In this document: in pieces, positions 56,185 to 63,888 of the stretch
How positions within the stretch are numbered: the stretch's first letter is position 1
Layout of the letters: each line of letters starts with the position of its first letter
NCBI RefSeq assembly: GCF_017347585.1
Contig: NZ_AP024480.1
Location: forward strand, 672,001-736,000
Origin: Caldicellulosiruptor diazotrophicus
Lineage (GTDB): Bacteria; Bacillota; Thermoanaerobacteria; Caldicellulosiruptorales; Caldicellulosiruptoraceae
DNA: 64,000 bases
Reading direction: 5' to 3'
Position numbers and translations under genes: made by a program
Notes under the pieces: generated by a model
The model's database searches: none
Told to the model about the DNA's origin: nothing
What the model saw: the letters and a program-made list of their open reading frames with translations, nothing else

Positions 56185-56584
56185 AATCAAAAGGGGAGAC
56201 ATATTTTATGCTGACCTTGCTCCACATGTTGGTTCTGAGCAGGGCGGCATAAGACCAGTTCTGGTAATTCAAAATGATATAGGGAACAAATACAGCCCAA
56301 CTGTGATTGTGGCTGCGATAACTTCACAGATTGGCAAAGCTAAATTTCCAACGCATGTTGAGATTCGTGCGGGTGAGTTTGGTCTCAGCCGTGACTCTGT
56401 CATTTTACTTGAGCAGATCAGAACAATTGACAAAGTGCGACTCAAAAATAAGGTTGGCAAACTTTCTGATGAGGTCATGGAAAAGGTAAACCAGGCAATT
56501 CTGATAAGCCTTGGGCTAATAGAATGGACAGCGGAGGGATATGATTGGAAAAAGAAAGAAGGCGCAGGGTTAAAAAAGGCGTAA
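56141..56584 (+). CDS. mazF: MazF/PemK-family endoribonuclease toxin
   Basis: 147 residues. MazF core: [56 protein letters not shown], and [15 protein letters not shown]. The catalytic Arg (near GGIRPV) and Thr (AAITSQ) are present, so it should be an active mRNA interferase. GTG 56141 opens the frame, but a GTG at 56150 with GGAG ten bases upstream is an equally possible start. The C-terminus carries an extra ~25-residue charged tail. It is overlapped at the 3' end by the next gene. Confidence 0.92.
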
Positions 56585-57192
56585 ATTTTTTGATACTTGT
56601 TCTGGTGGCAGGAGTGCTAAGTATGGGAGTTATATTTGCATTTTCTCAGTCAATTGACAGCAACGCACTTGTCACATACGGTTTTTTGAAAAAACAGGTT
56701 GACCAGTTAAAGTCGTACATAGACAATAAAATAAATGAATTAGATAAGAAAATAATGGATACAAATATTTCCTCAGGGCAAGTACAAGATATTCCGAAGT
56801 TGCAAAGCCAGCTTGCCAATTTATCTTCCGAGATTGAAAAACTAAAGGAGCAAACTAAGCAGCTTGATGCCAAACTTAAAAACGTCTCAGGCGCTTTAGT
56901 AACAAAAAAGAGCGATTTTGTATACACTAAAGGTTACGAGGTTATTAAGGTACCAAAAAGCAAGACCATCTTATTTGATGCATCAACAGAGTTTGTGGTA
57001 CGAGTTGGAAAAGCTATTTCTGTGGTGCCCAAAGGGGCAACAATCATTGATTTGACAAGTGCAAAAGATGTGGGTTCAAACCAGCAACTTTTATTTAACC
57101 ATTTTTATTTAGTGGCAAGAAGTGATGGTAGAGGATTTAAAGCTCTGGATGACGTGTGGGTAATTGTAAATGGTGGGTACAAAATCAAATAA
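56545..57192 (+). CDS. Membrane-anchored coiled-coil protein after mazF
   Basis: 215 residues, no recognised family. An N-terminal membrane segment (about 13-32) after a very basic start ([10 protein letters not shown]) is followed by a coiled coil (about 45-110; [23 protein letters not shown] and [20 protein letters not shown]). A C-terminal beta domain of ~100 residues ([26 protein letters not shown]...[14 protein letters not shown]) ends it. The TTG start at 56545 has GGAGGG six bases upstream, and it overlaps mazF by 40 nt, indicating coupling. Probably extracytoplasmic. Confidence 0.75.
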
Positions 57193-57209
57193 CAAAGGGG
57201 AAGAATATC

Positions 57210-57857
57210 ATGAAAATAGATATTTTAGCGGCAGCGACAGCTGGTTTTTTGTCTTTTTTTTCTCCGTGTATTTTGCCGCTTATACCGGTGTATGTTCTAT
57301 ATCTTTTTTCTCAAAAAGGTAACAGGTTAAAAAATAGCTTTTTGTTTGTTCTGGGATTTTCAATTGTCTTTGTTGCACTTGGAGTGCTTGCTGCAGTGGT
57401 AGGCAGTGTTTTTTCTGGGTACAGTTTTGTGCTAAAAAAGATAGCAGCAATAGTTATTGTTTTGATGGGTCTGGTGATGCTTGACTTGTCACCAGATTTT
57501 TTAAAAAGGATTTTTATACCTATACAGGGTAAAGGTAATTTGGATATTAATGCTTCACCGTTGATTTTAGGAATGGTTTTGAGCATAAGCTGGACACCCT
57601 GTGTAGGACCAATTTTGGCCTCTATTTTGAGCATGGCGGCTATTTCAAAGACTCTTTTAAAAGGAGCGATGCTGCTTTTTATTTATTCGATAGGTTTTGC
57701 TGTACCGTTTTTGATCTCAAGCTTTTTAATAGACAGGCTAAAAGCTTTTTTTGGCATGTTGAATAGGTACAGCAGTGCAATAGAGTATTTTACAGGTGCG
57801 CTTTTGATTGCATTTGGTATGCTTGCATTCTTTGATAAGATAAATTTCTTCAGGTAG
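57210..57857 (+). CDS. ccdA: CcdA-type thiol-disulfide membrane transporter
   Basis: 216 residues, six membrane segments. The paired redox cysteines are in SFFSPCILPLIPVY and in SISWTPCVGPILASIL, the CcdA/DsbD-beta hallmark. It carries reducing equivalents across the membrane to extracytoplasmic thioredoxins. ATG 57210 has AAAGGGG upstream; the longer frame from 57156 overlaps the previous gene. It is followed by a TlpA-like protein, the usual partner. Confidence 0.92.
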   Translation: MKIDILAAATAGFLSFFSPCILPLIPVYVLYLFSQKGNRLKNSFLFVLGFSIVFVALGVLAAVVGSVFSGYSFVLKKIAAIVIVLMGLVMLDLSPDFLKRIFIPIQGKGNLDINASPLILGMVLSISWTPCVGPILASILSMAAISKTLLKGAMLLFIYSIGFAVPFLISSFLIDRLKAFFGMLNRYSSAIEYFTGALLIAFGMLAFFDKINFFR

Positions 57858-57891
57858 AAATTTGAAAAATTAAAAAAGAGGTGAATATTTC

Positions 57892-58392
57892 ATGTTGAAT
57901 ATTAGAATCAAAAGTGTTATCTTTATATTGATAAGCGCCATTTTGATTGGGATTTTAGTATACCAGATTATGTCGCGCTCAAAAGAGAATACGGCTGCCG
58001 AAGGTATAGTTAATTTCAAACTTGTATCAGTGGATGGCAAAGAGTATTCACTGTTGGATTTTAGGGGCAGAAAGGTTGTACTCAACTTTTTTGCAACATG
58101 GTGTCCACCATGCAGGGCTGAAATACCCGATTTTGAAAGATTCCATCGAGAAAACAAAGATGTTGTCTTGATTGGCATTAATATTCAAGAAGATAAAGCA
58201 ACAGTTGAGGAATTCTTAAATTCAATGGGAGTTTCATACCCAGTGCTTCTTGACAAAGATGGAAAGGTTTCTGCACAATTTGGGATTGAAGGAATACCCA
58301 CAACATTTTTGATTGACGAAAATGGAAGGATAATAGCGAAAAACGTTGGTATGATGACTTACGAGCAGCTTAAAAATTTTACTGATAAATAA
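57892..58392 (+). CDS. TlpA/ResA-like membrane-anchored thioredoxin
   Basis: 166 residues. An N-terminal membrane anchor (about 8-25) precedes a TlpA-like thioredoxin fold with active site WCPPC (near 71) in VLNFFATWCPPCRAEIPDFERF, and the cis-proline segment GIEGIPTTFLID. The domain faces outside and is presumably reduced by CcdA, 34 nt upstream. Relatives reduce apo-cytochrome c, sporulation or metal-binding proteins; the target here is unknown. GAGGTGA precedes the ATG. Confidence 0.9.
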   Translation: MLNIRIKSVIFILISAILIGILVYQIMSRSKENTAAEGIVNFKLVSVDGKEYSLLDFRGRKVVLNFFATWCPPCRAEIPDFERFHRENKDVVLIGINIQEDKATVEEFLNSMGVSYPVLLDKDGKVSAQFGIEGIPTTFLIDENGRIIAKNVGMMTYEQLKNFTDK

Positions 58393-58422
58393 AAATACTT
58401 CGAAAAAAGGGAATGAAAAAGG

Positions 58423-58743
58423 ATGCTGTATGGTGAGAGGCTTCTTTTTGGGGATATGTGGGTTGAAGTTAATGGTTCGATTGCTTCGGTAGGTATTACC
58501 AAAAATTTGGAGATAGAGCTTGGTGACATTGTGATGTTTGAGTTTTTCAAGACGTCAGGGTATATTCAAGAAGGAGAGGAGTTTGCAAGAATTGAGTCAA
58601 TCTACAAGACGTACACCTTGAAATCACCAGTGAGTGGTTATATAAGGTGGGCAAACCGTGATCTTCTTTTTGATCCTACTTTATTAAATTTATTACCAGA
58701 AGAAACAGAAATAATTAGTATAGACATCCAGCAACTTGTGTGA
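58423..58743 (+). CDS. GcvH-like protein lacking the lipoyl lysine
   Basis: 106 residues with a biotin/lipoyl-like fold. Alignment by eye to glycine cleavage H proteins is good: MWVEVNGSIASVGITKNLEIELGDIV, EGEEFARIES and SPVSGYIRWANRDLLFDPTLLN. The lipoylated Lys of ES(V/I)KA is replaced by Tyr (ESIYKTYTLKSPVSG), with lysines one place and six places later. So it is either not lipoylated or modified on a shifted residue. It follows ccdA and the TlpA-like gene after 30 nt and no glycine cleavage genes are seen in the window. The promoter of the next operon overlaps its 3' end. Confidence 0.78.
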   Translation: MLYGERLLFGDMWVEVNGSIASVGITKNLEIELGDIVMFEFFKTSGYIQEGEEFARIESIYKTYTLKSPVSGYIRWANRDLLFDPTLLNLLPEETEIISIDIQQLV

Positions 58744-58749
58744 TATAAT
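58721..58749 (+). promoter_or_regulatory. Predicted promoter of iron/cobalamin-type ABC operon
   Basis: TAGACA (58721-58726), a 17-nt spacer, TATAAT (58744-58749). The -35 box lies inside the end of the GcvH-like gene. Confidence 0.65.
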
Positions 58750-58785
58750 AATGCAAGCAAATTATTACATACAAAGGGGTTGAAT

Positions 58786-59736
58786 ATGCCGATGAAGTTC
58801 TCTAAAAAACTAGTTGCAATAGTTGTTTTAATTGCATTTGCGCTAGCTTTAATTCCATTTTATTCTCATGCTGCCGACTTTCCTGTCACAGTCAAGGATG
58901 GAAAAGGATATAGCATAACTGTAAAACAGAAACCTCAAAGGATTTTGTCGCTTGCGCTTCAGACAGATGAGATTTTGCTCAATATGGTATCAAGTAACAG
59001 AATTGTTGGGCTTTCTATATTTGCTGATGATAATAACAATTCTAATGTTGTGAATCTTGCTAAGAATGTGAAAGGAAGATACTCAAGCAATGATATTGAG
59101 AAGATAATTGCTGCAAAACCTGACCTTGTTATAGTACCTTATTACATTGACAAGTCAAAGTATGACCTTTTGAAGAAAGGTCTTAAGTGTCCAATATATG
59201 TCAGTTTAAATCCAAATTCAATTGCAAATATTAAGCAGGAAATAATAAATCTTTCAAAATTAACTGGTGAAACACAAAAGGGCCAACTTCTTATAAAGTA
59301 CATGGATGATAAAATTGATTTTGTGCAAAAGAAAGTAAAATACTTGAGAAAAAAGAAGTATGTGCTTTTTTACACATACTATTTCAACTCAACATATGGT
59401 AAAAATACAACACAGCATGAAATAGCAAAGTATGCAGGGGTTATAAATATAGCAGCTGTTGCTGGATTGAAAGGCTGGCCAACTATCTCAAAAGAACAGA
59501 TTTTGGAGTGGGACCCAGACATCATTGTTATTCCATCTGCGTCGTACAATCCAAAAAAGACTTCTCAGCAGTACGTAGAGGAGTTCAAAAAAGACCCTGC
59601 TTTCAAAAACCTGAAAGCTGTGAAGAACAACAGCGTAATTATTCTTGATGATAGGCACGTTCAAACAGTTTCGCACTATATTGTTGAAGGTATTTATGAC
59701 TTGGCAAAAGCTGCATATCCGTATCTTTTCAAATAA
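58786..59736 (+). CDS. ABC transporter substrate-binding protein (siderophore/cobalamin type)
   Basis: About 316 residues, the BtuF/FepB-like helical-hinge binding fold: QKPQRILSLALQTDEILLNMV, KPDLVIVPYYID, YAGVINIAAVAGLKG and ILEWDPDIIVIPS. A signal peptide ends SHAAD, with no lipobox Cys, so it is not an obvious lipoprotein. The ligand may be a siderophore, heme, cobalamin or other metal chelate. ATG 58786 has AAAGGGG at good spacing; the frame opens at TTG 58780. The operon continues with permease, ATPase and LUD gene. Confidence 0.88.
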   Translation: MPMKFSKKLVAIVVLIAFALALIPFYSHAADFPVTVKDGKGYSITVKQKPQRILSLALQTDEILLNMVSSNRIVGLSIFADDNNNSNVVNLAKNVKGRYSSNDIEKIIAAKPDLVIVPYYIDKSKYDLLKKGLKCPIYVSLNPNSIANIKQEIINLSKLTGETQKGQLLIKYMDDKIDFVQKKVKYLRKKKYVLFYTYYFNSTYGKNTTQHEIAKYAGVINIAAVAGLKGWPTISKEQILEWDPDIIVIPSASYNPKKTSQQYVEEFKKDPAFKNLKAVKNNSVIILDDRHVQTVSHYIVEGIYDLAKAAYPYLFK

Positions 59737-59747
59737 GGCTTTTATAA

Positions 59748-60770
59748 GTGGTGGTACAGTTGAAAAAGGTTTTGATTATTTTAGCTCTTCTGCTTTTGAC
59801 AGTATTTATAATATCCATAGGGGTGGGAAGTGTTTTTATCCCTCCCCTTCGTGTTTTAAAGGCACTTTTATCGCTCATAGGTATAAGTTTTGGTCCAACG
59901 AATGATATGGATTTGACAATTGTCGGACAAATAAGACTTCCAAGAATAATAATTGCCATGATTGTTGGGATGAGCTTAAGCATAGCAGGTGCGCTTGTTC
60001 AAGGACTTTACAGAAATCCCATGGCAGACCCAGGAATTATTGGAACATCAAGCGGTGCAAGTTTTGGTGCTATTGTTTGTATAGCCTTTTCGCTCAACAC
60101 CATAAACATATTTTATTTACCATTGTTTGCTTTTGCAGGTGCGCTTTTGATTTCGTTTTTAGTGTATAGGCTTTCAACCAAGAACAACAAAACGCCCATT
60201 ACAAACCTCATTTTAATTGGTATTGCAGTTTCAACCTTTGTGTCTTCAATAAACTCTTTGATTCTTTCAAACATAAATCAGTATCAGGTAAGCGAATATA
60301 TATTTTGGATGCTTGGAAGCTTGGACGGTCGCAGCTGGGTACATGTGAAGATTAGCTTTATTCCTCTTTGTATATTAATGTTATTTTCTTTGCTGTTTGC
60401 AAAGAGGATAAACATTTTGATACTTGGAGAGGAAGAAAGCTTTACAATTGGAGTAAATCCAGAAAAGCTGAAAAAAACCTTGCTTGTTCTTGTTTCGCTC
60501 ATAACAGGGATAGCGGTTTCTGTCTCAGGACCAATCAGCTTTGTTGGGCTAATTGTCCCCCACATGCTCAGACTCATTGTTGGAAGCGATTATAGAAGGC
60601 TGATACCTGCTTCAATTTTAAGTGGTGGAATATTTTTGATTGTGTGTGATACAATTGCAAGAGTATTGTTTTCACCGGTTGAAGTAAAGGTGGGGATTAT
60701 AACCTCTTTAGTGGGGGTTCCGTACTTTCTGTACCTTCTGAAAAAGCGTGAAAATGAGGTGAGTGTATAG
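59748..60770 (+). CDS. FecCD-family ABC transporter permease
   Basis: 340 residues, about ten membrane segments. Family segments are RLPRIIIAMIVGMSLSIAGALVQGLYRNPMADPGIIGTSSGASFGA, SEYIFWMLGSLDGRSW, ITGIAVSVSGPISFVGLIVPHMLRLIVGSDYRRLIPAS and VGVPYFLYLL. It forms a homodimeric pore for chelated iron or cobalamin. The start is uncertain: GTG 59748, GTG 59751 or TTG 59760, with weak SD-like sequence before each. It ends 4 nt before the ATPase ATG. Confidence 0.92.
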   Translation: MVVQLKKVLIILALLLLTVFIISIGVGSVFIPPLRVLKALLSLIGISFGPTNDMDLTIVGQIRLPRIIIAMIVGMSLSIAGALVQGLYRNPMADPGIIGTSSGASFGAIVCIAFSLNTINIFYLPLFAFAGALLISFLVYRLSTKNNKTPITNLILIGIAVSTFVSSINSLILSNINQYQVSEYIFWMLGSLDGRSWVHVKISFIPLCILMLFSLLFAKRINILILGEEESFTIGVNPEKLKKTLLVLVSLITGIAVSVSGPISFVGLIVPHMLRLIVGSDYRRLIPASILSGGIFLIVCDTIARVLFSPVEVKVGIITSLVGVPYFLYLLKKRENEVSV

Positions 60771-60774
60771 AATA

Positions 60775-62016
60775 ATGCCTCTTTTTGTTGAGAACCTTAA
60801 ATGCGGCTACTCTTATCCCATTGTTGAGATAAATGGAAGACTTAAGTTCGAAGAAGGGAAAGTCTATGGATTTGTTGGACCAAACGGAAGTGGTAAAAGT
60901 ACACTAATAAAGGCTTTAGCAGGGCTTGTCAAAATTTTTGAAGGCAGGATTTGTTTTGGTGATGTGCAGATAAGCAAGCTTTCCGACATAGAAAGAGCAA
61001 AGCTTATTTCGTACATGCCACAGCACATCTTTTCAAGCTTTCCATTTACAGTGCTTGATGTTGTGATGATGGGAAGATTTCCTTATGAAAAGAGCAGGTT
61101 CTTTGCTACCTACGAGAGCAAAAAAATCGCGGAGGAGAAAATAGAACAGGTTGATCTTTCCAGCAAAAAACTTTTGAGCATATTAAAGATTTCTGGTGGT
61201 GAGAGGCAAAGAACTTCCTTTGCACGTGTGCTTGCTCAAAGTAGCAAAGTTTTGCTTTTAGATGAGCCAAATTCAAACTTGGATATTTCCCATCAAGAAA
61301 AAATTTTAAGAATTGCAAAAAAGGAAGCGCTTGATGGCAAGATTGTCATAATGGCAATTCATAATCTGAAAATTGCAGCCAAAGTGTGCGATTGCGTGAT
61401 TATAATGAAAGATGGTAAAATTGTAGATATTGGAAGACCAGATGAGGTTCTAAACCAACAGAACATCAAAAAGGTGTACAATGTTGACGCAGTTGTTTAC
61501 AAAAATCCATTTGGGATATTTGATATAGAACTTATCCAGAGAGAAGACCCAAAAGCTGTGCACGTTCATGTTGTTGCAGGAGGTGGGAGCGCACAGCTTC
61601 TTTTCAGGATGCTCGTTGAAATGGGGTGTAAAGTCACAACAGGTGTACTTTCCACAAACGATACAGACTTTGAAACAGCTCAGCTTTTTTCCATCTATAC
61701 AGTTTTTACGAAACCTTTTATGCCAATTGGAGAAAAAGAGTATATTGAAAATATTCAGCTAATCAGCAAGGCAGACCTGTGCGTGCTTTGCAGTATTCCG
61801 TTTGGTGTTCAGAACCTGAAAAACTTAGAGGCGCTAAGGTATGCTAATAAGCTTTGCATAATTGAAGAGGAGGATATTTCAAAACGCGATTTTACAGGCG
61901 GTTTTGCAACAAATCTTTACAATTGCTTGAGAGAAAAAGCCTTAGTTGTTTCAAACAGTGAGAGTTTGAAAGATTATATCTTAAGAGAAACAAATGTAAA
62001 AGATGTAAAGGAGTGA
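60775..62016 (+). CDS. ABC transporter ATPase fused to an extra C-terminal domain
   Basis: About 413 residues. The first ~245 are a FecE/BtuD-like ATPase with Walker A GPNGSGKST, signature SGGERQR, Walker B VLLLDEPNSNLD and H-loop AIHNLKIA. Residues about 260-413 form an additional domain: VHVHVVAGGGSAQLLFRMLVEMGCKVTTGVLSTNDTD followed by LISKADLCVLCSIPFGVQNLKNLEAL. The GGG loop and alternating strands look like a Rossmann-type fold; the domain is seen in some other prokaryotic ABC ATPases and its role is unknown to me. ATG 60775 is chosen because the upstream GTG 60763 abuts GAGGTGA. The LUD gene follows. Confidence 0.87.
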   Translation: MPLFVENLKCGYSYPIVEINGRLKFEEGKVYGFVGPNGSGKSTLIKALAGLVKIFEGRICFGDVQISKLSDIERAKLISYMPQHIFSSFPFTVLDVVMMGRFPYEKSRFFATYESKKIAEEKIEQVDLSSKKLLSILKISGGERQRTSFARVLAQSSKVLLLDEPNSNLDISHQEKILRIAKKEALDGKIVIMAIHNLKIAAKVCDCVIIMKDGKIVDIGRPDEVLNQQNIKKVYNVDAVVYKNPFGIFDIELIQREDPKAVHVHVVAGGGSAQLLFRMLVEMGCKVTTGVLSTNDTDFETAQLFSIYTVFTKPFMPIGEKEYIENIQLISKADLCVLCSIPFGVQNLKNLEALRYANKLCIIEEEDISKRDFTGGFATNLYNCLREKALVVSNSESLKDYILRETNVKDVKE

Positions 62017-62022
62017 TTTAAA

Positions 62023-62664
62023 ATGAATCAAAATAAGGCATGGTGGTTGGATACAAACTTTGAAACTGTAAAGAAAAACTTGGAGGCAAGAAACTTTGAA
62101 TGTTTTGTTGTTGAAAAAAAAGAAGATGTTGTACCTCTTTTAGAAAAACTCATTTCAAAAGGCAGCATGGTATCATGCGGTGGGTCAATGACACTTTTTG
62201 AATGTGGTGTGATAGATTTTCTGAGAAATGGCAATTACAACTTTTTGGACAGATACAAAGAAGGAATAACACCTGAGGAGCTTGGTGAGATTTACAGAAA
62301 ATCTTTCTGGGCTGACTACTATCTTATGTCAACAAACGCAATAACACTTGACGGAAAACTCATAAACATAGATGGGAATGGCAACAGGCTTGCAGCGCTT
62401 CTTTTCGGTCCTAAAAATGTAATAGTGATTGCCGGAAAGAACAAGCTTGTTTTAAACGAGGAACAAGGTTTGCTGAGAGTAAGGAACATAGCATCTCCTA
62501 TGAACTCAAAAAGACTTTCTCGAAACACACCCTGTACCCAGGACGGAAAATGCCATGATTGTTTAAGTTTTGAGTGCATCTGCAGCCATATTGTTGTAAC
62601 AAGAAGGTCTCCTGCAAAGGGAAGAATCAAGGTTGTGCTGGTCAAAGAAGACTTGGGCTTTTAG
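62023..62664 (+). CDS. LUD-domain protein (LutC/YkgG-like)
   Basis: 213 residues, DUF162/LUD family: WWLDTNFETVKKNLEARNFECFVVEKKED, VSCGGSMTLFECGVIDFL, DYYLMSTNAITLDGKLINIDGNGNRLAALLFGPKNVIVIAGKNKLV and a C-terminal Cys cluster CTQDGKCHDCLSFECICSH. The family includes LutC, part of lactate oxidation, but the solo, Cys-rich members near metal transporters have no known function. The start is ATG 62023 after AAAGGAGTG, 6 nt from the ATPase stop, so it is probably in the ABC operon. Confidence 0.88.
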   Translation: MNQNKAWWLDTNFETVKKNLEARNFECFVVEKKEDVVPLLEKLISKGSMVSCGGSMTLFECGVIDFLRNGNYNFLDRYKEGITPEELGEIYRKSFWADYYLMSTNAITLDGKLINIDGNGNRLAALLFGPKNVIVIAGKNKLVLNEEQGLLRVRNIASPMNSKRLSRNTPCTQDGKCHDCLSFECICSHIVVTRRSPAKGRIKVVLVKEDLGF

Positions 62665-62748: not shown

Positions 62749-62773
62749 AATAACATCAAAATAATAAACTTCA

Positions 62774-62918
62774 TAGGCTGAATGTCTGAGCAAATTGTAA
62801 AAATTGCTCAGACAGCGGGAGACCCAAAGTAAGTCAGGGGTGAATCGGCAAAAGTGTTGCCGTAGGGATAGCCTTCTTGTCCCGAACCCGTCAGCTAATC
62901 CCGTAAGCCTCAAGAAGG
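62774..62918 (+). promoter_or_regulatory. Cyclic-di-AMP (ydaO-yuaA) riboswitch
   Basis: The conserved ydaO core is visible: GGGGTGAATCGGC at 62837-62849, GCCGTAGGGATA, then CCCGAACCCGTCAGCTAAT and CCCGTAAGCCT. A basal helix is formed by AGGCT (62775-62779) and AGCCT (62906-62910), and an 11-bp hairpin sits at 62783-62793/62804-62814. The gene downstream is an SH3-NlpC/P60 wall hydrolase, the commonest target of this class. CCTTCTTG (62872-62879) can pair with CAAGAAGG (62911-62918), which holds the Shine-Dalgarno sequence and is followed by a short T run, so the switch may act on translation or termination. Confidence 0.88.
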
Positions 62919-62928
62919 GAGTTTTTGC

Positions 62929-63888
62929 ATGAATCTCAGAAGTTTAATGGCTATACTTCTTGTAATTTTTTTGATGTTTTTTTCTGCAAAGGCCTTTGCC
63001 CAGTCAGCCCAGGCAAAATCCACAATAAATATAAGAAGTGCACCTTCAACAAGTAGTAAGATTTTAGGAGTTTTCCCCAAAGGGTTTAAAGCACAAGTTT
63101 TGTCAAATACAGGTGGATGGGTAAAGATTTCGTATGATGGAATTGTTGGGTATGTAAAGTCTGATTACATAGCTATTACGAATGAAAAAATGAGCGCAGT
63201 TTTAAATAATTCAAGAGCAAGTGTAGCAAAAACGGCTGATATAATTGCGCAAGCCACAGTTTTAAAAGACAATGCACGCCTGAGAAGTGATATGTCAACT
63301 TCATCAAAGGTGCTGAAGACATTAAAAAATGGTAGCAAGGTGTATGTCCTGTCAAAAGAACAAAATGGCTGGGTGAAGGTAAAGACGCTTGATGGCGCAG
63401 TAGGATATATGGCTTATTACCTTTTGAAGATGCCATCGCAGCTTGTATCAAAAACAGTGTCACGTGGTGGGTTTGAAAGAAGTCAAGCAGAAACTTTTAT
63501 AAATCTTAGCTTGGCACAGAGAATTTTGGAGTTTGCTCAAAGATTTCGTGGCATAAGATACTCATACGGTGGAACATCGCCATCAACTGGTTTTGACTGT
63601 TCAGGATTTGTTCAGTTTGTGTTTAGAAACTTTGGAATAAATTTAGAAAGAACAGCAGCTGACATGGCAAGGGCAAATGGTGTGAGAATTTCGTATAGTG
63701 AAATTCAACCGGGAGATTTGCTTTTCTTTGATACAGATGGTGGGAAAAATTATATAAATCATGTTGGCATATATTTAGGTGGTGGCAAGTTCATTCATGC
63801 GTCAAGTGCAAGGGGACGTGTAACAGAAACTGACCTAAATTCATATTATGGAAGATTTTTTATGATGGCAAAAAGGGTCATAAGATGA
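62929..63888 (+). CDS. Secreted SH3-SH3-NlpC/P60 peptidoglycan hydrolase
   Basis: 319 residues: a signal peptide (cut near AFA-QS, residue 25), two bacterial SH3 domains (about 28-85: STINIRSAPSTSSKILGVFPKG; about 105-165: ARLRSDMSTSSKVLKTLKNG) and a C-terminal NlpC/P60 domain. Its catalytic Cys is in TGFDCSGFVQFVF and its His is in INHVGIYLGGG, and a conserved polar residue follows near HASSARG. Such enzymes cleave peptide cross-links in peptidoglycan (D-Glu-meso-DAP or L-Ala-D-Glu type). It lies behind a c-di-AMP riboswitch, which would link wall turnover to osmotic or cell-wall status. Confidence 0.95.
   Translation: MNLRSLMAILLVIFLMFFSAKAFAQSAQAKSTINIRSAPSTSSKILGVFPKGFKAQVLSNTGGWVKISYDGIVGYVKSDYIAITNEKMSAVLNNSRASVAKTADIIAQATVLKDNARLRSDMSTSSKVLKTLKNGSKVYVLSKEQNGWVKVKTLDGAVGYMAYYLLKMPSQLVSKTVSRGGFERSQAETFINLSLAQRILEFAQRFRGIRYSYGGTSPSTGFDCSGFVQFVFRNFGINLERTAADMARANGVRISYSEIQPGDLLFFDTDGGKNYINHVGIYLGGGKFIHASSARGRVTETDLNSYYGRFFMMAKRVIR

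Follow-up and report, generated by a model that had tools for sequence, protein, structure and literature searches.

An H-protein-like gene without the lipoyl lysine is kept beside ccdA and resA in thirteen genomes of the Caldicellulosiruptorales

Introduction

The lipoyl arm is the defining feature of H proteins. What, then, might be the role of an H-protein-like protein in which the lipoyl lysine has been replaced, and whose gene directly follows two genes of thiol-redox chemistry? The question is raised by a locus in the window, as we call the whole 64,000-nucleotide stretch of the Caldicellulosiruptor diazotrophicus genome analyzed here (G000:C1:672001-736000, where G000 is the window's genome). 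A first-pass annotation had described at this locus a GcvH-like protein with tyrosine at the lipoyl site, preceded by ccdA and a tlpA-type gene; upon reanalysis, the three genes were found with these identities and at the coordinates given, all on the plus strand. No published description of the H-like protein was found in a search by title and abstract opening, and full texts may mention it.

Results

The H-like gene is the third of three closely spaced genes

The features of the locus to which we refer throughout are as follows.

56545-57192, plus strand: coiled-coil protein encoded upstream of ccdA, with a hydrophobic stretch at its N terminus (by eye)
57210-57857, plus strand: CcdA-type membrane thiol transporter (DsbD_TM; Pfam)
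57892-58392, plus strand: ResA/TlpA-type thioredoxin with a WCPPC motif (Pfam, NCBIfam) and, by eye, a hydrophobic stretch at its N terminus
58423-58743, plus strand: H-protein-like gene, 106 aa, with Tyr61 at the lipoyl-lysine position and no cysteine
58600-58629, plus strand: lipoyl-type hairpin IYKTYTLKSP, codons 60-69 of the H-like gene
58721-58749, plus strand: promoter-like site TAGACA-17-TATAAT, overlapping the 3' end of the H-like gene and running just beyond it
58786-59736, plus strand: substrate-binding protein of a metal-chelate-type ABC transporter (Peripla_BP_2; Pfam)

The H-like gene starts 30 bases after the thioredoxin gene in the window, and no signal peptide was seen by eye in its product. 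The thioredoxin scored 132.1 and 116.6 bits against ResA/StoA-like models of NCBIfam, both below the cut-offs of these models, and from its sequence is better called ResA/StoA-like than "TlpA". Further upstream lie a mazEF-like pair and an alanine racemase gene (named by eye); a metal-chelate-type ABC transporter and a LUD-domain protein (Pfam) are encoded downstream of the H-like gene. Also in this part of the window are an ABC ATPase gene (60763-62016, plus strand; 417 aa), in which the Pfam ABC_tran match covers residues 26-170 and the C-terminal half is without a strong Pfam family of its own, and a c-di-AMP riboswitch (RF00379, 89 bits; 62766-62924, plus strand), which is closely followed by an SH3/NlpC-P60-like cell-wall gene (62929-63888; named by eye).

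The product belongs to the H-protein family and is predicted to share its fold

The H-like open reading frame matched the GCV_H family (PF01597) with 51.6 bits (cut-off 22.2, E 1.1e-13) over residues 12-94. A phmmer search of the PDB returned 15 distinct sequences at E up to 1 (best E 2.4e-10), 14 of which were H proteins, the sole other match being 7onh, SAKe6BE-L3. Judged by these matches, the resemblance to H proteins is far above chance. Scores against the two GcvH models of NCBIfam were 51.2 and 42.5 bits, for cut-offs of 117 and 115.85, respectively, such that the gene is an H protein by family assignment and not by the stricter NCBIfam models. The lipoyl hairpin aligned without gaps with that of relatives (ESVKAASDVYCPISG in relatives, ESIYKTYTLKSPVSG in the window), placing Tyr61 where the lysine stands, and ten residues were invariant over the 42 aligned rows: W13, G24, G34, D35, E58, P69, G72, N78, N89 and L105.

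A structure model built from 42 aligned sequences, canonical H proteins included, reached a mean pLDDT of 92.0, compared to 42.3 when only 12 close sequences were used; the failure of the model built without canonical H proteins means that the predicted fold is partly borrowed from homology. All 22 PDB matches of the model at E up to 0.001 were H proteins or the H-like protein GcvH-L (best E 9.7e-9), with Z scores of 14.3-16.8, whereas lipoyl domains and other barrel-sandwich proteins scored 8.6 and below. Superposition by VIA-align on the bovine H protein yielded a Z score of 16.8 over 103 residues (rmsd 2.4). The claim of the first-pass annotation that an H-protein fold has been conserved around a tyrosine-substituted lipoyl site is thus borne out by the family match, by the nearest structural neighbors of the model and by Tyr61.

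One copy per genome is found throughout the order

Profile searches at E up to 0.001 found exactly one match in each of the 13 genomes of the order, encoded in every case by an open frame of the same 106 aa. Scores were 200-210 bits in the genus and 180.1 bits in the single genome of the sister genus (G012); nothing exceeded 57.9 bits outside the order in overlapping samples of 299 and 398 genomes of the phylum. Two scans of genome contigs, from a set in which near genomes may be absent, found no relative of the protein. The 12 members of the order included in the 42-row tree were grouped together (100/100) on a long branch; given this branch and an unsettled bootstrap, the lineage from which the group arose cannot be told from the tree.

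The lysine is lost in all thirteen proteins, and tyrosine is specific to the genus

The first-pass annotation had proposed to check whether the tyrosine is conserved in relatives. It is in all 12 genomes of the genus, where the hairpin reads E(S/T)IYKTYTLKSP, but not in G012, which has asparagine at this position in the hairpin ETINNEYFLNSP; the canonical lysine was found in none of the order. The G012 hairpin differs at five of the ten positions of codons 60-69 and contains no lysine at all. From these sequences, the conserved trait is the loss of the lysine, tyrosine itself being conserved within the genus only. No cysteine is conserved either: eight of the 13 proteins, including that of the window, are free of cysteine, and one or two are present in each of the remaining five.

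Outside the order, lysine occupied this position in 40 of 42 loci (36 of 38 that fit the motif, plus four non-fitting ones read by eye), or in 38 of 40 places once two pairs of loci representing the same places (L018/L056 and L025/L065) were each counted once. An additional outside locus, L099, also has the lysine. The two exceptions, L023:1468-1872 (+) and L052:1489-1857 (+), encode full-length H-like proteins with serine and asparagine, respectively, indicating that the lysine has been lost elsewhere too. In both cases the adjacent gene is ileS-like, and a birA-like gene is close by (named by eye).

Other H-type genes were encountered among these loci. L032:2893-3747 (-) and L033:2529-3380 (+) encode proteins of 284 and 283 aa in which an N-terminal cysteine-rich part precedes a C-terminal H-type domain that keeps the lysine (ESGK), and their neighbors encode small cysteine-rich proteins. 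In L057 and L059, an H protein with the motif ESAK is encoded between acetyl-CoA-synthase-like and corrinoid-activation-like genes (by eye).

The gene is under purifying selection

The window was compared to ten of its 12 relatives (all but L004 and L005). In eight of nine comparisons within the genus, dN/dS of the H-like gene was 0.064-0.181, the ratios being rough in the four distant pairs where dS exceeded 1; the closest pair gave 0.347 (dS 0.05), above the values of ccdA and resA in that pair, and G012 was saturated and yielded no ratio. The gene is under purifying selection. Its product shared 76-81% identity with those of the four distant genus pairs, compared to 63-72% for ccdA and resA; in G012 the corresponding figures were 49% for the H-like protein and 51% and 47% for CcdA and ResA.

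Across the 12 genus genomes, none of codons 60-69 varied in amino acid while all ten varied synonymously. As a pre-chosen stretch, such invariance has a chance probability of 0.017. The probability of finding ten invariant residues in a row at some place in the protein is 0.49, or about one in two, and conservation of the hairpin thus provides modest support. The other invariant run, residues 92-102, includes codons 95-101, which are identical down to the nucleotide across the genus and whose end lies within the -35 box of the next unit; by its sequence this run is at least partly a DNA-level effect.

Glycine-cleavage partners were not found in the genomes searched, and lipoate appears to have another client

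No genome of the order had a GcvP match over cut-off (0 of 13), and GcvT was found in none of the 11 genomes searched, the window's own included (G011 and G012 being left out). Apart from the H-like gene, the order yielded a single GCV_H match over cut-off, which was partial and borderline (G012; 22.1 bits, or 23 when its neighbors are included). LipA, an LplA/LipB-type protein and a match to the 2-oxoacid dehydrogenase E2 of G000, which served to score E2 presence, occurred in the same ten of the 13 genomes. In G000 itself, the lipA and lipB products were both over cut-off (TIGR00510, 386 bits; TIGR00214, 160 bits with a cut-off of 83.55), and their genes adjoin those of a fused E1, an E2 with a Biotin_lipoyl domain and an E3. 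This arrangement, together with the co-occurrence in ten genomes, points to another client of lipoate in the genus. The cluster with fused E1, E3, E2, lipA and lipB genes at L040:2841-9859 (-), the E2 of which is found in ten of the 13 genomes, lies beside sugar-catabolism-like genes (by eye).

The three remaining genomes (G006, G011 and G012) have neither a LipA nor an LplA/LipB-type match over cut-off and keep the H-like gene, which argues that the protein has been retained without lipoate. From the sequence record, a lipoyl carrier is thus very unlikely. The earlier suggestion of a non-lipoylated H-like protein agrees with the loss of the lysine in 13 of 13 proteins and with these three genomes. 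The roles put forward with it, lipoate relay or sulfur trafficking, do not: relay was dismissed in view of the missing lysine, the three carriers of the gene without LipA or LplA/LipB-type matches over cut-off and E2 as the better client, and a thiol or sulfur carrier in view of the lack of any cysteine conserved among the 13 proteins.

The neighborhood is conserved, as is a larger block where checked

All 13 genomes have the coiled-coil gene, ccdA, resA, the H-like gene and the gene of the substrate-binding protein in this order; the H-like gene thus stays beside ccdA, and the unrelated contexts that were to speak against a tie to disulfide chemistry did not occur inside the order. The flanks, however, are kept as well: the 15 genes tested between 52140 and 63888 were collinear in all three genomes checked (G006, G008 and G012), such that the place beside ccdA is not independent evidence and cannot prove a functional tie.

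On the downstream side, the hexamers TAGACA and TATAAT were identical in all 12 aligned sequences, which came from the window and 11 relatives (with G012, but without L004). The promoter scan by itself was not significant, as it found 29 promoter-like sites where shuffled sequences gave 21.3 on average (sd 5.4). Given the invariant hexamers, the transporter probably has its own start, with the Peripla_BP_2 gene (58786-59736) probably opening a separate transcription unit and the H-like gene ending the ccdA-resA side. The first-pass annotation was right that the H-like gene precedes a metal-chelate transporter in gene order, but a promoter-like site with invariant hexamers lies in between, and a direct link of the protein to this transporter was set aside because of it.

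Seven of the 17 CcdA loci outside the order were read. In these, resA followed ccdA and no H-like gene was present in the stretch seen; in three of the seven, a thioredoxin gene came next as the third gene of the cluster. These three loci, in which the order ccdA, resA, thioredoxin was read by eye from translations, are L089, L092 and L097 of class relatives.

Discussion

The reading that we favor, with a probability of about 0.5, is that the H-like gene encodes a lineage-specific, selection-maintained and cofactor-less binding protein of the H fold. In this reading, a relative of the glycine-cleavage H protein has lost its swinging arm, leaving a cytosolic binding protein without cofactor that might act as an adaptor or regulator. 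The face of the old hairpin would then hold a protein partner non-covalently, in the way that the H protein docks on its enzymes. More speculatively, this partner could sit on the cytosolic side of the CcdA-ResA route, CcdA itself or its electron donor being examples; this is a purely positional guess, made because the H-like gene is the last one on the ccdA-resA side.

Comparison with known systems delimits what the protein may be. With GcvH (PF01597) it shares the alignment over residues 12-94, the predicted fold and the invariant residues; unlike GcvH, it lacks the lysine and, at 106 aa, the C-terminal part, falls below the NCBIfam cut-offs and occurs in an order devoid of GcvP (13 of 13 genomes) and of GcvT (11 of 11 tested). 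LbpA of sHdr sulfur oxidation is likewise a GcvH relative recruited outside glycine cleavage. In the available portion of PMC6067878, however, all 95 aligned LbpA proteins keep the lysine and, some archaeal ones excepted, two conserved cysteines, and the H-like protein has neither. No hdr-like gene was found by Pfam scan among the eight genes from 56545 to 62664. GcvH-L of Streptococcus pyogenes (PDB 5a35) is a short H-like protein of similar fold (Z 15.0), but only 20% identical. GcvH-L is lipoylated and has its own ligase and a sirtuin/macrodomain operon; no such partners (ligase, sirtuin/macrodomain) were found among the neighbors scanned with Pfam. The chlamydial not_gcvH model (TIGR03077) also describes a short H-like protein (model length 110), yet the score was 30.7 bits for a cut-off of 144.05. 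The serine- and asparagine-type proteins of L023 and L052 have lost the lysine too, but are longer (134 and 122 aa), cluster in the tree with the canonical H proteins and are not encoded beside ccdA in the stretch seen.

A narrower form of the favored reading, in which the protein is a dedicated member of the CcdA-ResA system that binds CcdA from the cytosolic side, or else thioredoxin or thioredoxin reductase, and tunes electron entry, is possible but tentative. The position of the gene directly after resA in every genome, the thioredoxin gene found as third cluster gene in three of the outside loci read and the conserved promoter-like site of the transporter, which leaves the H-like gene to the ccdA-resA side, are consistent with it; the collinearity of the whole block where checked, the lack of a conserved cysteine for electron relay and the seven outside CcdA-ResA pairs without an H-like gene speak against it. 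We consider it doubtful that, in this order, the arm-less H fold would serve the CcdA-ResA disulfide-reduction route as a docking or gating subunit in the cytosol, taking the cluster place held by a thioredoxin gene in some class relatives.

That the gene is instead a decaying GcvH relic, held in place by its operon and by a promoter touching its end, is unlikely. GcvP is gone, as is GcvT where tested, and codons 95-101 are invariant at the DNA level and reach into the -35 box of the next unit, as such a relic might show; yet the same 106-aa frame is open in 13 of 13 genomes, dN/dS is below 1 in all nine genus comparisons, and in the four distant genus pairs, though not in G012, the protein is better conserved than either CcdA or ResA. 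Carriage of another covalent group, on Tyr61 or elsewhere, is highly improbable, as the invariance of Tyr61 in the 12 genus genomes is offset by the asparagine of G012, and no modifying enzyme was recognized among the neighbors scanned with Pfam.

Finally, hardly any credence can be given to a lipoate or octanoate carrier that would still relay to E2 through the neighboring Lys62: this residue adjoins the lost site, is invariant in the 12 genus genomes and has a counterpart one place on in the asparagine-type L052, and ten of the 13 genomes encode LipA and an LplA/LipB-type protein, but the G012 hairpin is without lysine, G006, G011 and G012 keep the gene without LipA or LplA/LipB-type matches over cut-off, the LipA/LipB genes lie beside E2 in G000 and co-occur with it in the same ten genomes, and the G000 transferase is a LipB by model (TIGR00214). 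LipB is, in the available portion of PMC10332631, an all-purpose transferase, so that relay through an H protein would not be needed.

For the family, the cofactor-less binding protein that we favor would mean that an order devoid of the glycine-cleavage partners tested keeps an arm-less H protein under selection, which suggests that the H fold may be reusable as a plain binding module. The idea is testable, since C. bescii carries the gene and genetic tools exist for this species. Were the partner to be CcdA or its electron donor, the protein would add an unexpected accessory to that route on its cytosolic side.
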